Below are positions 1 through 14,093 of a stretch of 41,021 nucleotides of DNA, in pieces. The stretch is taken from contig DATKDW010000076.1 of assembly GCA_035512495.1 (NCBI GenBank), positions 1-41,021 of the forward strand, in the 5' to 3' direction. The translations under genes were made by a program, and so were the position numbers. This DNA comes from Acidimicrobiales bacterium. GTDB lineage: Bacteria; Actinomycetota; Acidimicrobiia; Acidimicrobiales; CADCSY01. The notes under the pieces are model-generated. The model saw only the letters and a list, made by a program, of their open reading frames with translations. It was not told where the DNA came from and ran no database searches. Numbering within the stretch: position 1 is the stretch's first letter; every line of letters begins with the position of its first letter.

Positions 1-1185
1 GCCCGCACGGTCGAGGCCGCCTTCGGTGAGGTCGCCAGCGACGAGGAGGTGGCGAAGTGGCGCTCGGTGACGCCATTGGACCGCACCATCGCGGTGGTCG
101 ACGAGGGTGAGATCGTGGGCACCGCGGGGGCGTTCTCCTTCGACATGTCGCTCCCGGGCGGCACCGACACCGCGGTCGCCGGCGTCACCGCCGTTTCGGT
201 GCGCCCGACGCACCGCCGGCGGGGCCTGCTGCGCCGGATGATGGATCACCAGCTCGACGACATCGCCGAGCGGGGCGAGGCGGTGGCCATCCTCACCGCG
301 TCCGAGACCGTCCTCTACGGCCGCTACGGCTACGGGCTGGCCGCCTCGTACAGCGGGTGGACCCTGCCGACGCTCGGCACCACTCTGGCTCGCCCTTCCA
401 CGGCGCCGGGACGGTGCCGGATCGTCGACGCCGCCGAGGCCCGCAAGGTGCTCCCCGACGTCTACGAGCGGTCGCGCCACCGCCACCCGGGCCAGCTGAC
501 TCGGAGCGAGGCGTGGTGGGACCTGCACCTCGCCGACGAGCCGTCGGACCGCAACGGCCTGTCCGCGCTGTTCCACGCCGTCCACGAGGATCCCGCCGGC
601 GTGGCCGACGGGGTCGTCACCTACCGGCGCAAGTCTGCCCACGACCACGGCCTCCCCGCAGCCGAGATCCACGTCCGTCCCGACCTCTACGCCGTCGACG
701 ACGAGGTCGAGGTTGCGCTCTGGGAGCTGTTGATCGGCACCGACCTCGTGCGCACGATCCGCACGCACGGCCGGCCCGTCGACGAGGTCCTTCGGTGGCG
801 CCTCGCCGATCCCCGGCGGCTCCAGATCCGGGCCGTGACCGATCACCTCTGGGTGCGGGTGCTCGACGTCGCCGTCGCCCTCGAGGCGCGCCGCTACCCG
901 GTGGATGGACGGCTGGTGCTCGACCTGACCGACCCCTTCCGCCCTGCCAACGACGGCCGGTGGGCGCTCGAGGGCGGCCCGGACGGCGCCACCGCAGGGC
1001 GGACGACCGACGATGCCGACTTGGCGCTGTCGGCCGACGACCTGGGGGCCCTCTACCTGGGCGGGGTCAGCGCCACGACCCTCGCCCGGGCGGGCCGGGT
1101 CACCGAGCTGCAGCCGGGCGCGCTGGCGAGGGCCGACGTCATCCTCGGCTGGGGCGTTGCCCCGTGGTGTGCCACCGAGTTCTGA
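1..1185 (+). CDS. Eis-like GNAT N-acetyltransferase (5' end outside window)
   Basis: The reading frame is open from base 1, so the N-terminus is cut off by the window; a GTG at 49 is probably internal. About 394 residues are visible, close to the roughly 400 of Eis enzymes, so only a short piece is missing. The GNAT core shows the acetyl-CoA loop VRPTHRRRGLLRRMM and the Eis-type segment ASETVLYGRYGYGLA, whose Tyr matches the general acid of Eis. The second half fits the tandem GNAT and SCP2-like part. The protein ends in Phe (ATEF), and in mycobacterial Eis the C-terminal Phe carboxylate takes part in catalysis (family knowledge). Eis proteins acetylate amines, including aminoglycosides in mycobacteria; the natural substrate here is unknown. 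Its promoter is not in view. Confidence 0.85.
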   Translation, partial: ARTVEAAFGEVASDEEVAKWRSVTPLDRTIAVVDEGEIVGTAGAFSFDMSLPGGTDTAVAGVTAVSVRPTHRRRGLLRRMMDHQLDDIAERGEAVAILTASETVLYGRYGYGLAASYSGWTLPTLGTTLARPSTAPGRCRIVDAAEARKVLPDVYERSRHRHPGQLTRSEAWWDLHLADEPSDRNGLSALFHAVHEDPAGVADGVVTYRRKSAHDHGLPAAEIHVRPDLYAVDDEVEVALWELLIGTDLVRTIRTHGRPVDEVLRWRLADPRRLQIRAVTDHLWVRVLDVAVALEARRYPVDGRLVLDLTDPFRPANDGRWALEGGPDGATAGRTTDDADLALSADDLGALYLGGVSATTLARAGRVTELQPGALARADVILGWGVAPWCATEF

Positions 1186-4281: not shown

Positions 4282-5487
4282 TCAGGCCCGTAGGCCCGTC
4301 ACCGCCTCCACGTCGTCGGCCACGAAGCGGTAGCCCCGGCGCACTGCCGTCTCGATGGCACTGCCGGCGGGGCCGAGCCGGCGACGGAGGCGGGCCACGG
4401 TGACCTCCACGGCGTGTTCGTCGGCCTCACCCGGACCCCACACCTGGCGCAGCAGGGTGCTCTTGGCCACCACCGTCCCCGGGCGCTCGAGCAGCACGTC
4501 GAGCACGGCCCGCTCCCGGTTGGTCAGCGCCACCGCGACGCCGTCGATGACGGCGGTGCTGCCCTGGAGCACGACCACCCGGGAACCGACCACCACTCGG
4601 CGACCTCGACCCTCGAGGGCCGAGCACAGGGCGCCGACCATGGCCCCGAGGCGGGCCCGAGGCGGCTCGACCACCCGGGTGAGGCCGTGGCGGGCGGCGA
4701 CGCCGGCGCACACCGGCCCGACGCAGACGACCAGGATCGGGCCGGCGGCGGCGGCGACCAGCTCGTCGAGGCGGCCCAGCCCCCTTGCCACCCCGAGGAG
4801 GTTCTCGAGGGCAGGGGCGCTCGTGAAGGTGACGGCGTCGAGGCGGCCCTCGCAGGCGGCGACCACCAGGCGCTCGGCCGGGCGCAGGTCGTCGGGCAGC
4901 GTCCAGCGGTACACGGGGACCTCCACCACGTCGGCGCCCCGAGCCCGCACGGCGTCGCTGAGCGTGGAGGTCTCGCTCCCGTCGAGCTGCACCGCCACCC
5001 GCAGGCCGGCCAGGTCGGCGCCGAGGTGCTCGAGCAGCTCGGTCGAGCGCTCGCTCGGTGCCGACCACGCGATCTCCAGGCCCGCTGTGAGGGCGGCGCC
5101 GGCCGACTTCGGGCCGCGGGCCAACACCTGGGCGCTCACCAGTGCCGCGAGCAGGTCGTCGTCGAGGCCCTGGCTCTGGGCCGTGGCCATCCAGCCGCGC
5201 ACCCCGAGCCCCGTGGTGATCAGCACCAGGTCGGGTGGCTCGGCGATCAGGGACTCGGTGGCGTCTCGCAGGGCGTCGGACGCACCCAGGAGGAGGGTGT
5301 GGATGGTGGGCGCGTGGACCACGGCGGCGCCCCGGCACTCCAGCAGCTGGGCCTGCTCCTCCCACCGGTGATCGGCGGTGATCCCGACCGAGAAGCCGGT
5401 GAGCGGGGAGAGGGCCATTGCATCAGTGTCGGACATCGATGTTTCGCCACCGTTGCCGAGGGATGTCCGCAGGTGTGGTTCGGTCAC
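4282..5487 (-). CDS. nnaR: HemD-like / OmpR-type winged-helix transcriptional regulator (NnaR-like)
   Basis: A 401-residue two-domain protein. Residues about 30-290 form a uroporphyrinogen-III synthase (HemD) fold, e.g. GVRGWMATAQ, DAVTFTSAPALENLL and VVCVGPVCAGVAARHGL. Residues about 300-390 form an OmpR/PhoB-type DNA-binding domain (LTNRERAVLDVLLERPG, VEVTVARLRRRLG, RRGYRF). This architecture is that of NnaR, a co-regulator of nitrate/nitrite assimilation in Streptomyces and mycobacteria, which fits its place at the end of the narK-nasA operon. Its start lies 18 nt after the nasA stop with GGAG 10 nt before the GTG; ATG 5436 is a possible shorter start. Whether the HemD half is still catalytic or only senses a tetrapyrrole-related signal is not decidable here. 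Confidence 0.86.
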   Translation of the reverse strand: MTEPHLRTSLGNGGETSMSDTDAMALSPLTGFSVGITADHRWEEQAQLLECRGAAVVHAPTIHTLLLGASDALRDATESLIAEPPDLVLITTGLGVRGWMATAQSQGLDDDLLAALVSAQVLARGPKSAGAALTAGLEIAWSAPSERSTELLEHLGADLAGLRVAVQLDGSETSTLSDAVRARGADVVEVPVYRWTLPDDLRPAERLVVAACEGRLDAVTFTSAPALENLLGVARGLGRLDELVAAAAGPILVVCVGPVCAGVAARHGLTRVVEPPRARLGAMVGALCSALEGRGRRVVVGSRVVVLQGSTAVIDGVAVALTNRERAVLDVLLERPGTVVAKSTLLRQVWGPGEADEHAVEVTVARLRRRLGPAGSAIETAVRRGYRFVADDVEAVTGLRA

Positions 5488-5505: not shown

Positions 5506-7722
5506 TCACCGCTCCCAGTGGGCGAGGGCGCGGACGGCCACCGCAGCGTGCTTGTACGACGGTTGGCGCGAGTGCGGGTCGACGGTGGGGTGGGTGAGGC
5601 GGTTGGTGGCGGCGTCGTGCATGGCGACGAACACCTGGCCCGGCGACACCGTGGCGGTGACGAGTGCTCGAGCTCGCATGGTGCCCCGCGCCGAGGCGAC
5701 CTCCACCTCGTCGCCGGGGCTCACGCCCGCCACCTCGGCGTCGACCGGGTTCACCTCCACCCATGCTCCCTCGGGAGCCAGGCTGCGCAGCACCGCCGAG
5801 GTGGAGGTGCGGGTGCCGGTGTGCCACTGGGCGGCGCTGCCCCGTCCGGTGAGCAGCACCAGCGGAAACCGATCGCTCACGGCCTCCCGGGGGGCACGGG
5901 GCACATCGGCCACGAAGTGGGCCCTGCCGTCGGGGTGGAGGAAGCGGCCGTCGGCGAAGAGGCGTCGCTCGTCGCCCGCCACCACCTCGGCGCCGGCGGG
6001 GCAGGGCCACTGGATGCCGCCGGCATCGTCGATGTGGCGGTAGCCGTCGATGCCGCTGATGTCGCACGGGCGTCCGGCGGAGAGCTCCTGGAGGATGGCG
6101 AATGCAGCCTCGGGGGAGGTCCACCGCTCGAACAGCTCGCCACAGCCCCAGGCGTCGGCCAGCAGGCGGAGGATGGCGAAGTCGGCGAGCGCCTGACCCG
6201 GCGCCAGCGACACCGCCTTGATGACCCCCAAGCGGCGCTCCGAGTTGATGAAGGTGCCCTCCTTCTCCCCCCATGCGGCGGCGGGGAGCACCAAATCGGC
6301 CCGGCGGGCCGTCTCGGTGGTGGCGTACATGTCCTGGACGACCAGGAGGTCGAGGCGGTCGAGGAGGCCGTCGAGGTCGGTGGAGCTGATCCAGGAGTGC
6401 GCCGGGTTGGTGGCGATCACCCACAGGCCGCGGATGGCGCCGGACGCGATGCCCTCCACGATCTGGTCGTAGGCCCACGACGGCCGGTCGGGGATGCGCT
6501 CGACGGGGACGTCGAGGATCGACGCGACCTCGGCCCGGTCGCCGGCGTCGGTGAAGGAGCGACCTCCGAACAGGTTGGTGGTGTTGGCGAAGAGGCGTGA
6601 CCCCATGGCGTTGCACTGGCCGGTGATGGAGTTGGGACCCGTGCCCGGCCGGCCGATGTTGCCGGTCATGAGGGCGAGGCCGATGATCGCCTGGGCGGTG
6701 CGCACGGCTTCGTGGCCCTGGTTCACGCCCATCGTCCACCACAGCGACACCCGCTCCCCGGTGCCGATGCTGCGGGCGAGGCCCTCGAGCTGCTCGACGC
6801 TGAGGCCGGTTGCCGCGCCCACCCGCTCCACCGTGAAGTCAGCCACCGCCGCCGCCCACGCGTCGTAGCCCTCGGTGTGTGCGGCCACGAACGCCTCGTC
6901 GACCCACCCCCGCTCGATGATCAGGCGGGCCACGCCGTAGAGCAGCATCAGGTCGCTCTTGGGGAGCAGCGGGAGGTGGGTGGTGGCCGCCATCGCCGTC
7001 TCGGTGACGCGGGGATCGATGACGATGATCTCGGGGTGGTGGGGGTTGCGGGTGATGCGCTCCCAGAGGATGGGGTGGGCGATGCAGAGGTTGGATCCCA
7101 CCAGGACGATGACGTCGGACGCCTCGAGGTCGGCGTAGGTGTAGGGCGGGGCGTCGAAGCCGAAGCACTCCTTGTAGGCCACCACCGAGCTGGCCATGCA
7201 CTGGCGGGTGTTGCCGTCGCCGTGGACCATGCCCATGCCGATCTTGGCCACGGCACCGAGGAGGGCCAGCTCCTCGGAGGGCATCTGGCCGGTGCCGAGG
7301 AAGGCCACCGAGTCGAGGCCGTGGTCGGCCTGGATCTGCTGGAAGCGACGGGCGAACGTGGTGGTGGCCACCTCCCAGCTCACCGGTTCCAGCCGACCTC
7401 CCGGGCCTCGCAGTAGCGGGGTGGTGGCCCGTCCCTGCCCGGACAACGGCGTGAGCGCCTCCCAGCCCTTGGGGCAGGCCATGCCCAGGTTGACGGGGTG
7501 GTGGGTGCTCGGGGTGAGCCCCACCGCCTGCCCGTCGCGGAGGTGGACGTCGAGCGAGCATCCGGTGGAGCAGAACCCGCAGATCATCGAGGTGGTGGCG
7601 TCGGGGGCCCGGCGCGCGGGGACCTGGCCGATGCCGAAGCCGCCGGGTCGGCGCGACAGGTCGGCGGTGAGCGGGCCGTCGTCCTGGTGGAGGAGCGACC
7701 GGAGACGGTCGAGGAGCCTCAC
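5506..7722 (-). CDS. nasA: Assimilatory nitrate reductase, molybdopterin catalytic subunit
   Basis: A 738-residue member of the DMSO-reductase molybdopterin superfamily, of the Nas/Nap type. The N-terminal [4Fe-4S] ligands are Cys48, 51, 55 and 83 (C-x2-C-x3-C-x27-C). The expected molybdenum ligand is Cys175 in [12 protein letters not shown]; respiratory NarG enzymes have Asp instead. No twin-arginine signal is present, so the enzyme should be cytoplasmic and reduce nitrate to nitrite for assimilation. No C-terminal NADH/FAD or BFD-type domain is seen, so electrons must come from another protein. The GTG start overlaps the stop of the DmsBC-like gene by 4 nt (GTGA), pointing to coupled synthesis of those two. 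nirBD would take the nitrite onward. Confidence 0.92.
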
Positions 7723-9398
7723 GTGGGCGCCCCCGGCATGCGCCTCGGGGTGGAGGCGGTGAAGTGCAGGTTCCGCTCGAGCAGCTCCCCGGCGACGAGG
7801 AGTGCGAGGGCGGCGACGGCCAGGGCGACGACGAGCCCGTCGTTCGGCACCGGCGACCGTGCGGTCACCAGCACGGCGACGGGGAGCACCACGCCCCCGA
7901 GCGTGCCGGCAGCCAGGCGGCGCACCGAGGTGGACCGCAGGTCGCGGGTCAGCAGCACGGCGGTGCCCCGCAGCTCACCGGAGCCGTGGCGGTGGCGGAC
8001 CACCGAGGCGTCCAGGAGCAGCTTCGCGATCACCGACGCCACGACGGTGGTGGTGAGGGGCGCCACCAGGGCAGGCGCGCCGTCGGCACCGGCGGCGAGC
8101 GAGCTTGCCAGGACGGTGGCGGCACCGCACGACACGGTGGTGAGGGCGAAGCGGGGGCCGGTGGCACCGACCCGCCACCACCGCCGGCCGGTGGCGGCGT
8201 AGATCATCACCGAGCACGCCACCCCCGTCACGCCCATGACCACCACCGCGCCGGCGACGGCGGCGCCCGTCGCCGAGGCGAGCGGGACCCCGCCCACGGT
8301 GGCGCCCGCGTGGGCGGCGGCGGCACCGGCGAAGGCCACGAAGGCCACGATCTCCCGGCTCAGCCACGAGCGGCGCACGCCGAGCACGGCACGGAATGCC
8401 AGGTGCGGGCGCCCGAGGTGCAGCACCGACGCCCCGAGCGCCATCAGCCCGGCGACGAGGGCGCCGACGGCGTTCGACGGCAGCGCCTCGGCGGCGCCTC
8501 CGGCGGCCAGGAGCCGAACGGTGAGGTCAACGAGGAAGGCTCCGACGGAGAGCTGGGTCAGCACGAGCATCACCGCCAGGGACGGATGCGCGTGGCCCGG
8601 GACCACGGCGGAGGCGTCGGCGGCCACCAGGCCGGGGTCGATCCCGGTCGCCGACCGATAGGTGGTGGTGGGGACGGTGGTCGTCGATGCCGGGGCCCCG
8701 GGCACGAGCGGCGTGGCCGCCGCCACGCGCGCAGCAGCCACGTCGACCAGTCCGACGCGGATGGCCCCGTTGGGGCATCCCTGCACGCACGCCGGCGCCT
8801 CGCCCGCGGCCAGGCGGTCGGTGCAGAGGTCGCACTTGCGCACGATGCCGAGGCGAGCGCTCATGGTGGGCACCTCGTACGGGCAGGTCCAGGTGCAGTA
8901 CCCGCACCCGATGCACTGGTCGTCGAGGTGGCGGACGATCCCGGTGGTTGGGTCCTTGACGTACGCCTCGACGGGGCAGCCCTGGAGGCAGGCGGGCTCC
9001 ACGCAGTGGTGGCAAGCGGTGGTGACGTGCTGCTGGACCGCCGGGCCGCCGGACCCGCCGTGGAGCAGGCCCACCGAGCGCCAGGACTCCTCGTCCTCCA
9101 GTCCGTTGAGCTGGTGGCAGGCGGTGACGCACGCCTTGCACCCGGTGCAGGCGTCGAGATCGACCTCGAAGCCGTACTGCTGGCCCGGCCCGGGCGCCGT
9201 GAGGGGGATGAGATCGCGGTAGTACCGGGCGTGGGCGGGCACGGTCCCCGACTCGTGGCGTTGGGTGAAGCGCGCCACCGCCCGCAGGTCGCCCTGGGCG
9301 GCGAGCCAGTGGTCGAGGGGCGTCGACGGTGCCTGCTCCCCGGTCGGCGCCGGGCGGGACAGCTGCGCCCCGGCAAGGCTGGTGGCGGCCGCCGTCAC
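7719..9398 (-). CDS. Fused DmsB-like four-cluster ferredoxin and DmsC-like quinol anchor protein
   Basis: A 559-residue fusion. Residues about 75-215 are a DmsB/NrfC-type electron carrier with 16 Cys in four groups (84/87/90/94, 129/132/137/141, 162/165/168/172, 189/192/204/208), enough for four [4Fe-4S] clusters. Residues about 270-545 are a DmsC-type membrane anchor with several hydrophobic helices and the family motifs [14 protein letters not shown] and SWLSREI; the His and Glu in these match E. coli DmsC His65 and Glu87, which bear on quinol binding, with the same 22-residue spacing (from memory). It probably takes electrons from menaquinol and passes them to NasA. GTG 9398 overlaps the narK stop and its own stop overlaps nasA, each by 4 nt. 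The frame extends further upstream but that part is a shadow of narK. Confidence 0.88.
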
Positions 9399-10960
9399 GA
9401 GCTGGTCACAGCCACTCGCCGCTCCTCGGCGGCGGGGATGGCCACGGCGGACAGGTCCACGATCTCGTCGCCTGGGTCCTCGGCCGCCAGCTCGGCGTCG
9501 AAGGCGCCGTCGGGCTCGGGCAGGAAGGCGCAGGCCACGCTGCCGAGGACGGAGGCGGCGGCGATCACGATGAAGAACACCGCGGGGCTCACGAAGAGGA
9601 AGACGGTGAGGAAGCAGACCGCTCCCACGTTCCCGTAGGCCCCGACCATGCCGGAGATCTGGCCCCCGACACGCCGCTTGACGAGGGGGACGATGGCGTA
9701 GGTGGCGCCCTCGCCCGCCTGCACGAAGAACGAGCACGCCATGGTGACGGCCATGGCGACGGGCACGGGCCACGACGGCCCGAGGGCGGCCATGGCCAGG
9801 TAGCCCACGGTGAGGCCGACGAGGAGGGCCCGCAGGGTCTGGCGGCGGCTGCCGAGCAGGTCGGAGAGGAGGCCGCCGGCGGGTCGGGCCACCAGGTTCA
9901 TGAAGGCGAAGCCGCTCGCTGCCGCACCGGCGAGGGCCGGCCCGAGCCCCCACGTGTCGGCGAAGAACAGCGGGAGCATGGAGACGACGGCCAGCTCGGA
10001 TCCGAACGTGCAGGCGTAGGCGACGCACAGGATGGCCACGGAGCGGAAGGGGTAGCGGTCGCCCTCGGGGTACTCGTCGGCGAGGGCGGGTCGGTTCACC
10101 ACGATCACCCGCTGGAGCTGCAGCGCCAGCAGGGCGACGAGGGAGATGCCCACCACCCAGAGCCCGGTTGTGGGTAGCACGTCCACCCGCCACACGCGCC
10201 AGGCGATGAGCCCGAGCACCCCGGTGAGGGGCACGGTCAGGGCAGCCAGGCCCCACACGGCGCCGGGCCCGGTGACCTCGAGGGCCCCCTGCCGCCGGGG
10301 TCGGGCGTAGCTGCGCCCCTCGGGGGTGTCGCTGACCGACCGCAGGTAGACGAGGCCGTAGGTGGCGGCGACGACGCCGGTCGCCGCCGTGGCCCAGCGC
10401 CACCCGGAGTCGCCTCCAACGACGCCGGCGAGCAGGGGGAGGGAGAAGGCGGCCGCCGCCGACCCGAAGTTGCCCCAGCCGCCGTAGACCCCTTCGGCCA
10501 TCCCGACCTCGCGGGGCGGGAACCACTCCGAGACCATGCGGATGCCCACCACGAAGCCGGCGCCCACCAGGCCGGTGGCAAGGCGGCTCACCACGAGGGT
10601 GGTGAAGGTGGTGGCGGTGGCGAAGAGCAGGCAGGGCACCAGGCTGTACAGGAGGATGGCGCCGAAGACCCGGCGGGGCCCGTAGCGGTCGAGGGCCATG
10701 CCGATGAGGATCCGCGCCGGCACCGTGAGCGCCACGTTGCACAGGGCCAGGGTGCCGAGCTGACCGGTGGAGAGGTCGAGCTGGTCGCCGATGGTGGAGG
10801 CGAAGGGCGCGAAGTTGAACCACACCACGAACGACAGGAAGAAGGCGAACCAGGTCAGGTGGAGGGTGCGGTGCCGGCCCTGGAAGGAGCAGAGGCCGGC
10901 GATCCGGGCCGACGCCCGGTCGCCGGCGACGGCGCGGGGGGAGGGTGCGGTCGGGGGCAT
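9395..10960 (-). CDS. narK: Nitrate/nitrite transporter, MFS superfamily
   Basis: A 521-residue, strongly hydrophobic protein of about 12 membrane helices in the NarK/NasA transporter family. Helix 1 shows TWFAFFLSFVVWFNFAPF, typical of the family, and the two nitrate-signature regions appear as GGWGNFGSAAAAF and GAYGNVGAVCF. It would import nitrate and/or exchange nitrite. A loop of about 90 residues between helices near the middle is longer than usual. Two starts are possible: GTG 11035 and ATG 10960. The latter is preferred, because a CACGAT box lies 7 nt before it and because GTG 11035 falls inside a perfect 20-bp palindrome that looks like an operator. It is the first gene of the nitrate operon, divergent from nirB. 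Confidence 0.9.
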   Translation of the reverse strand: MPPTAPSPRAVAGDRASARIAGLCSFQGRHRTLHLTWFAFFLSFVVWFNFAPFASTIGDQLDLSTGQLGTLALCNVALTVPARILIGMALDRYGPRRVFGAILLYSLVPCLLFATATTFTTLVVSRLATGLVGAGFVVGIRMVSEWFPPREVGMAEGVYGGWGNFGSAAAAFSLPLLAGVVGGDSGWRWATAATGVVAATYGLVYLRSVSDTPEGRSYARPRRQGALEVTGPGAVWGLAALTVPLTGVLGLIAWRVWRVDVLPTTGLWVVGISLVALLALQLQRVIVVNRPALADEYPEGDRYPFRSVAILCVAYACTFGSELAVVSMLPLFFADTWGLGPALAGAAASGFAFMNLVARPAGGLLSDLLGSRRQTLRALLVGLTVGYLAMAALGPSWPVPVAMAVTMACSFFVQAGEGATYAIVPLVKRRVGGQISGMVGAYGNVGAVCFLTVFLFVSPAVFFIVIAAASVLGSVACAFLPEPDGAFDAELAAEDPGDEIVDLSAVAIPAAEERRVAVTSS

Positions 10961-10967
10961 GGCGGCG

Positions 10968-10973
10968 ATCGTG
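10968..10973 (-). promoter_or_regulatory. Candidate -10 box (CACGAT) before narK
   Basis: On the minus strand CACGAT (two matches to the strongest positions of TANNNT) ends 7 nt before ATG 10960, the same spacing as at other genes in this window. If used, the nitrate operon mRNA is leaderless. The box is a weaker match than those at ilvD or nirB. Confidence 0.35.
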
Positions 10974-11032
10974 CCCGGGGCGCGTTTCCCCTCGGGTTCG
11001 GCCGGGTTACGCCTCGTCGACGTCCGCCTCGC

Positions 11033-11052
11033 CACACCGGCGGGCCGGTGTG
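11033..11052. promoter_or_regulatory. Perfect 20-bp palindrome in the narK-nirB control region
   Basis: CACACCGG-CGGG-CCGGTGTG has two perfect 8-bp arms around a 4-bp centre. It lies between the divergent narK and nirB starts, 73 bp upstream of the narK ATG and 99 bp upstream of the nirB ATG, a fitting place for a shared operator. The adjacent operon encodes an NnaR-like DNA-binding protein, the obvious candidate to bind it. No T-run follows, so it is not an obvious terminator. Confidence 0.6.
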
Positions 11053-11075
11053 AGGGACCTCGCAGCGGCTACGGC

Positions 11076-11083
11076 CCGGTGTG
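11076..11083 (+). promoter_or_regulatory. Third copy of the CCGGTGTG half-site
   Basis: CCGGTGTG repeats the right arm of the 11033-11052 palindrome in direct orientation, starting 31 bp after it (11045 to 11076), about three helical turns, so both would lie on the same DNA face. It ends 56 bp before the nirB -10 box. This suggests cooperative binding of a regulator. Confidence 0.45.
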
Positions 11084-11139
11084 CGTGGCCGTTCACCGAG
11101 CCGTCCCACGGCGGCAACCGACGGGTGACGCAGCGTCCG

Positions 11140-11145
11140 TACGTT
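11140..11145 (+). promoter_or_regulatory. Candidate -10 box (TACGTT) of the nirBD promoter
   Basis: TACGTT ends 6 nt before the nirB ATG at 11152. The space between holds no ribosome site (CGTCCC), so nirB is probably translated from a leaderless mRNA. No good -35 box is visible, which fits an activator-dependent promoter. Confidence 0.5.
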
Positions 11146-11151
11146 CGTCCC

Positions 11152-13734
11152 ATGCAGTCGAAGCAGACGGTGGTCGTGATCGGCAACGGGATGGTGGGCC
11201 AGAAGCTCCTCGACGTGCTCGTGGAGGACGGGGCCACCGACAGGTGGGACGTGGTGGCCTTCGGTGAGGAGCGCCACCTGGCCTACGACCGGGTGAACCT
11301 CAGCGCCTACGTCGCCGGCGCGTCGGCCGCCGAGCTGAACCTGGCGGCGCCCGAGGTGGTCGGCCACCCGGCGGTGCGCATGGTGGTGGGCGACCGTGTG
11401 GTCGCCATCGACCGCGACGCCCGGACCGTCACCGCCGAGTCGGGCCAGGTCGTCTGCTACGACGCCCTCGTCCTCGCCACCGGGTCCACCCCCTTCGTGC
11501 CGCCGGTGGCCGGCGGAGACGGGCCCGGGTGCTTCGTCTACCGGACCCTCGACGACCTCGACGCCATCATCGCCCATGCCCCCGACTGCGGCACAGGGGT
11601 GGTGATCGGCGGCGGGCTGCTCGGCCTGGAGGCGGCCAACGCCCTGCGCCAGCTCGGGCTCGAGACCCATGTGGTGGAGTTCGCCCCCCGGCTCATGCCC
11701 GTGCAGGTGGACGACGCCGGCGGCTCGGTGCTGCGGTCGGCCATCGAGGCGATCGGCATCGGGGTGCACACGGCCAAGGTCACCACCGAGGTTCGCCGCG
11801 ACGGCGACCGGGTCACCGGGCTGGCCTTCGCCGACGGCACCGACCTGGTCGCCGACCTGGTGGTGTACTCCGCCGGGATCCGCCCCCGGGACGACCTGGC
11901 CCGCAGCTGCGGCCTCGAGGTGGGGGAGCGCGGCGGTGTCGTCGTCGACGACGCCTGCCGCACCGCCGACCCGCGCGTGTACGCCGTCGGTGAGTGCGCC
12001 AGCCACCAGGGTCGGGTGTACGGCCTGGTTGCCCCCGGCTACTCGATGGCCCGGGTCGTGGCCGACCGCCTGACCGGCGGCGATGCGACGTTCACCGGCG
12101 CCGACCTGTCGACCAAGCTCAAGCTCCTCGGCGTCGACGTGGCCTCCTTCGGCGATGCCCACGCCACCACCCCCGGGGCTCGGATTCTCACGTGGCACGA
12201 CGCCTGCCCCTCCGATCCGTCGGTGGCGACCTACAAGAAGCTGGTGGTGAGCGGGGACGGCCTACGGCTCCTCGGGGGGATGCTGGTCGGCGACGCCTCC
12301 GACTACGCGTCCCTCCACCAGCTGCACGCCTCCGGCGCGACGCTGCCCGCCCACCCCGAGCTGCTGGTGCTGCCGTCGCTCGCCGGCGCGTCGTCGCCCC
12401 TGCCCGGTGCCGGCGCCATGGACGACGGCGCCACCGTCTGCACTTGCAACAACGTCACCAAGGGCGCCATCTGCGCCGCCATCACCGACTGCGCCCTCAC
12501 GACCGTCGGCGAGGTGAGGGACGCCACCCGGGCCGGCTCCACCTGCGGCTCGTGCACCCCCCTGATCAGCGGCATCCTCGACGACGAGCTGACCCGGGCA
12601 GGCGTCGCGGTCGACCGGAGCCTCTGCGAGCACTTCCCCCACACCCGCCAGGAGCTCTTCGACATCGTGCGCGTCCGCCGGGTCCGCACCTTCGCCGAGC
12701 TGGTGGCGGGCTGGGGCACCGGCCGGGGCTGCGCGGTGTGCAAGCCGGCCGTGGCCTCGATGCTGGCCACGCTGTGGAACGAGCACGTGCTCGACCGCGA
12801 CCACGCCTCCCTCCAGGACACCAACGACCGCTTCCTCGCCAACCTGCAGCGGGACGGCACCTACTCGGTGGTCCCCCGCGTGCCCGGCGGGGAGATCACC
12901 CCTGAGCGGCTGATCGTGCTCGGTGAGGTGGCCCGCGACTACGACCTCTACACCAAGGTCACGGGCGGACAGCGCATCGACCTCTTCGGGGCCCGCCTCG
13001 ACCAGCTCCCGTCGATCTGGCGGCGGTTGGTCGACGCCGGCTTCGAGTCTGGCCACGCCTACGGCAAGTCGCTGCGGACGGTGAAGTCCTGCGTCGGGCG
13101 TTCGTGGTGCCGCTACGGGGTGCAGGACTCGACCAGCCTGGCCATCGCCCTCGAAGAGCGGTACCGGGGGCTGCGCTCACCGCACAAGCTGAAGCTGGCG
13201 GTGTCGGGGTGCTCTCGGGAGTGCGCCGAGGCCCAGGGCAAGGACGTGGGCGTCATCGCCACCGAGGCCGGCTGGAACCTCTACGTCGGAGGCAACGGGG
13301 GGATGAAGCCCCAGCACGCGGTGCTGCTGGCCACCGACCTCGACACGGCGACGCTCGTCCGGTACATCGATCGCTTCCTCATGTTCTACGTGCGCACCGC
13401 CGACCGGCTGGAGCGCACGGCCACCTGGCTCAACAAGCTCGACGGCGGCCTCGAGCACCTGCGCCGAGTGGTGGTCGATGACTCGCTGGGCCTCGCCGCC
13501 GAGCTGGAGGCGGCCATGGACCACCACGTCGACACCTACCGCTGCGAGTGGGCCGCGACCCTCGACGACCCGGCCAAGCTGGCCATGTTCACGCCCTTCG
13601 TGAACGAGCCGGAGGCGGTGGAGGTCGATCTCGCCTACGTCCGCGAGCGAGGCCAGCGCCGGCCGGCCTCGGCCGAGGAGCGCGCCGCCTCCGAGGTCGC
13701 CGTGACCGTGACGGCGGGGGTGGGTGGACGATGA
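11152..13734 (+). CDS. nirB: Nitrite reductase [NAD(P)H] large subunit
   Basis: An 860-residue protein that reduces nitrite to ammonium in the cytoplasm. Domains in order: FAD-binding fold (VVVIGNGMVGQ, residues 7-17), NAD(P)H fold (GVVIGGGLLGLEAAN near 148-162), a BFD-like [2Fe-2S] domain with Cys430, 432, 465 and 468, a second Cys pair in GRGCAVCKP near 527, then the ferredoxin-like and siroheme/[4Fe-4S] half with Cys647, 653, 687 and 691 (C-x5-C and C-x3-C, in SCVGRSWC and SGCSREC). All expected cofactor ligands are present. ATG 11152 is chosen because it begins just before the FAD motif and has TACGTT 6 nt upstream; the longer open frame upstream is not conserved-looking. It overlaps nirD by 4 nt. 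Confidence 0.95.
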   Translation: MQSKQTVVVIGNGMVGQKLLDVLVEDGATDRWDVVAFGEERHLAYDRVNLSAYVAGASAAELNLAAPEVVGHPAVRMVVGDRVVAIDRDARTVTAESGQVVCYDALVLATGSTPFVPPVAGGDGPGCFVYRTLDDLDAIIAHAPDCGTGVVIGGGLLGLEAANALRQLGLETHVVEFAPRLMPVQVDDAGGSVLRSAIEAIGIGVHTAKVTTEVRRDGDRVTGLAFADGTDLVADLVVYSAGIRPRDDLARSCGLEVGERGGVVVDDACRTADPRVYAVGECASHQGRVYGLVAPGYSMARVVADRLTGGDATFTGADLSTKLKLLGVDVASFGDAHATTPGARILTWHDACPSDPSVATYKKLVVSGDGLRLLGGMLVGDASDYASLHQLHASGATLPAHPELLVLPSLAGASSPLPGAGAMDDGATVCTCNNVTKGAICAAITDCALTTVGEVRDATRAGSTCGSCTPLISGILDDELTRAGVAVDRSLCEHFPHTRQELFDIVRVRRVRTFAELVAGWGTGRGCAVCKPAVASMLATLWNEHVLDRDHASLQDTNDRFLANLQRDGTYSVVPRVPGGEITPERLIVLGEVARDYDLYTKVTGGQRIDLFGARLDQLPSIWRRLVDAGFESGHAYGKSLRTVKSCVGRSWCRYGVQDSTSLAIALEERYRGLRSPHKLKLAVSGCSRECAEAQGKDVGVIATEAGWNLYVGGNGGMKPQHAVLLATDLDTATLVRYIDRFLMFYVRTADRLERTATWLNKLDGGLEHLRRVVVDDSLGLAAELEAAMDHHVDTYRCEWAATLDDPAKLAMFTPFVNEPEAVEVDLAYVRERGQRRPASAEERAASEVAVTVTAGVGGR

Positions 13735-14093
13735 GCGCCGGCACCGAGGTGACGACCACGTGGGTGGCGGTCTGCCCGGCCGAGCAGATCGTGCCCGAGA
13801 CGGGCGTGTGCGCCCTGGTCGAGGGCGAACAGGTGGCGGTGTTCCGCCTGGCCGACGGCAGCGTGTGGGCCCTCGGCAACCTCGATCCCTTCAGCGGCGC
13901 CTCGGTGATGGCCCGGGGGATCGTCGGCGACCGCGCCGGCGTCCCCGTGGTCGCCTCACCGGTCTACAAGCAGTGCTTCGACCTCCGCACCGGCGCGTGC
14001 CTCGACGACCCCTCGGTGGCCCTCCCGGCCCACCGGACCGAGGTGGTCGAGGGGGTGGTCCTGGTGGCGGCCCAGGAGGGCATGGCTACCTGA
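13731..14093 (+). CDS. nirD: Nitrite reductase small subunit, Rieske-like fold
   Basis: A 120-residue NirD protein that partners NirB. The ATG overlaps the nirB stop (ATGA), so the two are translationally coupled. The fold follows the Rieske pattern (VFRLADGSVWALGNLDPFSG, then SPVYKQCFDLRTGACLDD), but the CxH and CxxH cluster ligands are missing, as is usual for bacterial NirD, so it should not bind a [2Fe-2S] cluster. Its last 8 bp overlap the convergent ABC permease gene, leaving no room for a terminator between the two transcripts. Confidence 0.93.
   Translation: MSAGTEVTTTWVAVCPAEQIVPETGVCALVEGEQVAVFRLADGSVWALGNLDPFSGASVMARGIVGDRAGVPVVASPVYKQCFDLRTGACLDDPSVALPAHRTEVVEGVVLVAAQEGMAT

Follow-up and report, generated by a model that had tools for sequence, protein, structure and literature searches.

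The window, i.e. the whole stretch of 41,021 nucleotides analysed here, carries the nitrate and nitrite genes of an Acidimicrobiales bacterium on both strands. On the minus strand, narK, coding for a nitrate/nitrite transporter (9395..10960; TIGR00886, 342.6 bits, over the cut-off), a gene for a fused 4Fe-4S and DmsC-like subunit (7719..9386; PF13247 and PF04976), a gene for a Nas-like molybdopterin nitrate reductase (5506..7719; below the cut-offs of the NasA and NasC models) and nnaR (4282..5418) are nearly contiguous, and the plus strand carries nirB and nirD, coding for the large and the small subunit of nitrite reductase (11152..13731, TIGR02374, 1053.9 bits; 13725..14090, TIGR02378, 106.7 bits). 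The gene at 7719-9386 (minus strand) joins a 4Fe-4S dicluster part and a DmsC-like anchor in one protein beside the Nas-like molybdoenzyme, a pairing that was also seen in many relatives and that hints at a membrane-linked nitrate reductase inside an otherwise assimilatory operon. Apart from these genes, an identical 27-mer was noticed near two contig starts, at window positions 4-30 and at G000:C35:112-138, perhaps an assembly overlap or a repeat.

An earlier sequence-only reading had taken the HemD/OmpR protein of the narK operon for NnaR-like. A family scan covering positions 4282-5484 bore this out, with a score of 359.9 bits against NF005568 (cut-off 273) and with the HemD domain (PF02602, 118 bits) fused to an OmpR-type DNA-binding domain (PF00486, 62 bits), as expected of an NnaR; this DNA-binding domain was aligned across 65 loci, the window among them. 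The genome (2.80 Mb, 96% complete) codes for five proteins with a Trans_reg_C domain. In one of them, the GlnR-like protein, Trans_reg_C was the only domain matched, with no match to a receiver family or to any GlnR-named model, and its best PDB chain matches were 8hih, 8hig and 8hml. We take these three entries to be GlnR structures, and the identity of the protein as GlnR rests on those names. Genes for both regulators thus appear to be present, that for NnaR within the narK operon and another for a protein resembling GlnR. The best four-repeat GlnR-type array of the genome (L260, G000:C40:55797-55834, minus strand) was found directly upstream of the ammonium transporter gene amt, an indication that GlnR control operates in this organism.

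The sequence-only reading had drawn attention to a perfect palindrome, CACACCGG-CGGG-CCGGTGTG, between narK and nirB and to a further CCGGTGTG downstream of it. Both are exact, at 11033..11052 (no strand) and 11076..11083 (plus strand), the further copy starting 31 bp from the start of the right arm of the palindrome. Taken by themselves, the octamer and the palindrome say little, since the octamer is not over-represented (6 copies in the window versus 4.3 expected, with at least 6 in 22 of 100 shuffles) and 8-bp palindromes are common in the GC-rich sequence of the window (45 perfect inverted repeats with 8-bp arms and a loop of up to 10 in the window versus 28 in shuffles). It is the recurrence, 31 bp on, of a longer element of 27 bp that goes beyond chance. 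Two such NnaR-type boxes, of the form CTCRC-N17-GYGMG and 31 bp apart, occupy the narK-nirB intergenic region. Box A (11028..11054, minus strand; CTCACACCGGCCCGCCGGTGTGGCGAG in narK orientation) reads CTCAC-N17-GCGAG toward narK, with one mismatch to CTCAC-N17-GTGAG, and box B (11059..11085, plus strand; CTCGCAGCGGCTACGGCCCGGTGTGCG in nirB orientation) reads CTCGC-N17-GTGCG toward nirB, with two mismatches. Both have the two-fold design of NnaR operators, CTCAC(a/c)..GTGAG, in which 15-18 bp separate the two 5-mers, here 17. The two direct copies of CCGGTGTG are the right arms of boxes A and B, and the inverted copy, which starts at 11033, falls within box A.

Each box stands next to a GlnR-type array with a periodicity of 11 bp. 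The array toward nirB (11092..11129, plus strand) reads TTCAC-n6-GTCCC-n6-GCAAC-n6-GTGAC, with GTCCC as its weakest repeat, and fits the published a/b-site consensus; the array toward narK (10984..11021, minus strand) reads GTCGA-n6-GTAAC-n6-GAACC-n6-GAAAC. Both consist of 5-mers of the gTnAC/GaAAc type with 6-bp gaps, as in known GlnR sites. Box B faces nirB and box A faces narK; each is 17 bp away from the array of the gene that it faces and 48 bp away from the array of the other gene. A -10-like hexamer follows each array 37 bp after the array start, TACGTT for nirB (11140..11145, plus strand; 12 bp before the ATG) and CACGAT for narK (10968..10973, minus strand; 13 bp before the ATG). In both directions the order is thus the same, namely box, 17 bp, array, -10-like hexamer and a nearly leaderless ATG, with 81 bp from the box start to the -10 hexamer. 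The right NnaR half-site lies one 11-bp step, with a 6-bp gap, before the first GlnR-type 5-mer. An NnaR operator is further marked by GlnR-type arrays near nitrate and nitrite genes, and here such arrays are found 17 bp off on both sides, upstream of these genes.

A matrix built from relatives' boxes only (20 boxes listed by hand, hence conditioned on having a box and mostly also an array) ranked box B first (15.9) and box A second (14.5) in the 41-kb window, the next match scoring 9.7. The training boxes themselves score between 12.7 and 27.9, and both values belong to the bottom quarter of these. Since the best score in 30 shuffles of the 41-kb sequence, which permuted 2-mers and so preserved dinucleotides only roughly, was 12.6 on average and reached 16.9, neither box is significant alone. 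On the plus strand, the left arms of both boxes read CTCGC versus CTCAC in the consensus of the order, and box B also carries GTGCG; the deviating left-arm position is A, rarely T, in the 20 training boxes. When the whole genome was searched for the composite of an NnaR-type box and a GlnR array, only the two composites of the window were recovered with at most one mismatch, partly by construction, because the search pattern had ambiguity letters that admitted the boxes of the window. The informative part of this search is that nothing outside the window had fewer than three mismatches; the nine other composites had three each, which is the control level. CTCRC-N17-GTGMG alone was discarded as a genome-wide motif, being too loose (80 matches versus 33 in the control).

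Relatives were examined as well. In the order, 397 genomes were covered and 50 of them, including the one studied here, have nirB; the 49 relatives' loci were compared, and nnaR lies near nirB in most of them. Perfect CTCAC-Nk-GTGAG was found in 169 upstream regions of the order, among which divergent regions can count twice, nine times at k=17, three times at k=18 and 0-1 times at any other k, and in 40 loci of the same phylum 12 times at k=18, four times at k=17 and 0-2 times elsewhere. An apparent peak at k=15 in the 169 regions was rejected as a shift artefact of CTCACAC/GTGTGAG. A divergence of narK and nirB was detected in none of the 49 relatives' nirB loci, in which distant NarK variants may be missed. 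In three Streptomyces-type loci (L212, L216 and L221), the full nirB is directly preceded by a partial match to the N-terminal part of nirB, with 37-38% identity over about the first 400 residues.

The comparison with relatives also bears on the palindrome. The dyad of box A (11041) and the axis of the palindrome (11042.5) are 1.5 bp apart, the left arm of the palindrome falls in the interior of box A and does not share the register of that dyad, and no conservation of the palindrome's inner letters was found among the relatives' boxes. As a working unit the palindrome was therefore rejected, both for its unconserved letters and for the commonness of 8-bp palindromes, and the earlier proposal of an operator for the NnaR-like regulator acting in both directions is supported in its regulator, by comparison of the NnaR-type boxes, and is not supported in its unit. 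One may still think of the operator of an unrelated dimer, be it a repressor or an activator, to which the third CCGGTGTG would offer an auxiliary half-site: CACACCGG-N4-CCGGTGTG has its sole perfect copy of the 2.80-Mb genome here, and at up to three mismatches 67 matches were found versus 28 for the reversed control. We consider this very improbable, since the arms conserved in relatives are CTCAC and GTGAG with k=17 or 18, in addition to the shifted axis, the variable inner letters and the frequency of such repeats. That the palindrome, which could make a GC-rich stem, serves as an RNA hairpin or terminator can hardly be credited, because it lies about 81 and about 111 bp upstream of the inferred starts and should be outside both leaderless transcripts.

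Next to the boxes themselves, it is their distance from the arrays that recurs. In the nirB loci of the order (49) and the phylum (40), from whose comparison L078 nirB and L095 fesC were dropped, box-to-array distances form two clusters, at 17 bp and at 47-49 bp. The remark in the sequence-only reading that the repeats are about three helical turns apart was an apt one, as 31 bp is the gap between these two distances. The same clusters were obtained independently of genes by scanning both strands of the 49 loci of the order, the 40 of the phylum and 78 named ones, with the window, L185 and L191 left out, for boxes with at most one mismatch (386 boxes). An array scoring at least 8.5 was present at 53 of the 386, with 28 at 17 bp, eight at 6 bp, which is the same array taken one repeat earlier, 11 at 47-49 bp and six elsewhere. 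Strong arrays at offsets 6, 17 or 28 numbered 36 versus a shuffled mean of 0.12, and those at 47-49 numbered 11 versus a shuffled mean of 0.135 and a maximum of 2 in 200 rounds, the shuffles again being of 2-mers. Kinship enters these counts, as 14 of the 16 phylum-set matches at offset 17, with k=18 and one mismatch, come from one family. With looser limits, a composite of either class was found in 32 of the 49 order loci and other offsets in at most three loci, and 17 of the 49 had no composite even so; at the strict threshold, three of 23 actinobacterial and one of 57 other named loci had one. Of 47 modules picked by hand, a choice that presupposes a box and mostly also an array, 28 have the -10 pattern xAxxxT at +37 from the array start and six have it at +36, mostly with an ATG soon after.

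Paired boxes recur as well. Over all loci, box pairs with a summed mismatch of at most three were found five times at 31-32 bp (the window, L096, L114, L135 and L146), whereas no other spacing had more than two. Moreover, six of nine promoters of the distal class carry a degenerate box (up to three mismatches) exactly in the proximal slot; with a chance of 0.0073 per slot this gives a binomial probability of 1.2e-11 if relatedness is ignored. The nine promoters were listed by hand, again on the strength of a box and mostly of an array (seven upstream of nirB, L112 upstream of narK and L116 without gene assignment), and the slot test took k=17 or 18, a choice made after an earlier run with k=17 only. 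The 31-bp step thus recurs, and it does so mainly in nirB promoters. At L216 5815 and L168 8891, NnaR-type boxes overlap at a distance of 16 bp, half the step of 31-32 bp.

We therefore read the narK-nirB region as a back-to-back pair of like promoter modules through which NnaR and GlnR would co-activate both operons, and give this a probability of roughly 0.84. The earlier reading, which left a choice between the NnaR-like regulator and a global one, overlooked the GlnR-type arrays at a fixed distance on each side; judged from the motifs, both regulators acting together are most likely. Each predicted module would consist of an NnaR box, 17 bp, a GlnR array of 11-bp repeats, a -10 hexamer at +37 and an ATG that is nearly leaderless. 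When nitrogen is limiting, GlnR would sit on both arrays and NnaR on both boxes, and the OmpR-type DNA-binding domains of the two would lie side by side on one helical face, since the 11-bp period of the GlnR repeats extends to the right half-site of NnaR. NnaR would act as a co-activator of GlnR, probably with cooperative binding. The pair may turn on import and nitrate reduction (narK, FeS/DmsC, nas and nnaR) together with nitrite reduction (nirBD), and with nnaR in the narK operon a feedback is predicted.

Another regulator of the OmpR family, of the MtrA, PhoP or AfsQ1 type and competing for the GlnR-like repeats, might be the main occupant of the region. For such proteins, competition or binding at nirB has been reported in two papers (PMC6277429, PMC10704036), and there are five Trans_reg_C proteins in the genome to choose from. 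This is nevertheless improbable, as such competition would touch the arrays and not the boxes, the CTCAC-N17-GTGAG box is a published NnaR-type motif, and nnaR stands beside nirB in most loci.

Since the boxes are 31 bp apart, the opposite array is in each case 48 bp away, which is the second of the two favoured distances. There may be two NnaR seats per GlnR array, at 17 and about 48 bp, and sharing of the box pair would then make co-activation of narK-nas and nirBD obligatory within one NnaR-GlnR assembly. We propose this use of the distal position tentatively, at somewhat less than even odds. Alternatively, a single functional box (A or B) could serve both genes, or each box its near gene only, in which case the 48-bp relation would be incidental, or the second copy would act as a weak accessory site. 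Single boxes that read 17 one way and 48 the other do exist, as in Yinghuangia and Streptomyces sp. RPT161, where the one nnaR-nas box reads 17 toward nas and 48 toward nnaR; the degenerate proximal copies of the distal class and the off-consensus letters of both window boxes point the same way. Yet the scores of the two window boxes are similar and an array of its own stands 17 bp from each, and we regard a one-box or near-gene arrangement as rather unlikely. Returning to the pair of co-activated modules, their same-face 11-bp register suggests that a HemD-fused regulator and a GlnR-type one, which lacks a recognised receiver domain, touch each other directly.

The NnaR and GlnR regulators, the NnaR motif and the co-control of nitrate genes are already known. 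The sequence-only reading had asked for a comparison with the mycobacterial NnaR motif, and the region does hold boxes that match it. In M. smegmatis, according to the available portion of Antczak et al. 2018 (PMC6277429), the motif is CTCAC(a/c)-N16-(t/g)GTGAG and lies beside GlnR sites with a similar spacing, transcripts are leaderless, and narK and nirB are among the targets. The box spacing there is 18, a strict mycobacterial value, versus 17 here, and that portion of the paper describes neither a two-position rule nor a shared box pair. For M. abscessus, the accessible text of PMC11162112 gives CTCAC[A/C][Cg]-N13-16-GTGAG, a small regulon and boxes 63-66 bp upstream of the start codons; the boxes of the window end 66-67 bp before each ATG. 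Unlike the locus described here, M. abscessus has a single operon, narK3-nirBD-nnaR-sirB, without a divergent shared region. In S. coelicolor, the nirB promoter is likewise a target of NnaR and GlnR (PMC10704036), which NnaR binds cooperatively with GlnR (Amin et al. 2012, as cited in the parts available of PMC10704036, PMC11162112 and PMC6988585). The a/b-site arrays of GlnR, gTnAC-n6-GaAAc 5-mers with 6-bp gaps in the excerpt of PMC3662644, share their 11-bp periodicity and their 5-mers with both arrays of the window, whereas here two such arrays point away from each other and each keeps a fixed distance to an NnaR box. In the accessible literature on NnaR spacing and tandem sites we found no rule of two distances, no tandem boxes at nirB and no back-to-back pair shared by two operons; Amin et al. 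2012 may contain part of this. Compared with these systems, it is the precise spacing rule and the layout shared in two directions that appear to be new. They turn a loosely stated co-activator relation, in which NnaR helps GlnR, into a testable geometric rule, with distances of 17 and 47-49 bp and a fixed 37 bp to the -10 hexamer, from which NnaR targets should be predictable by sequence in lineages that lack genetics.
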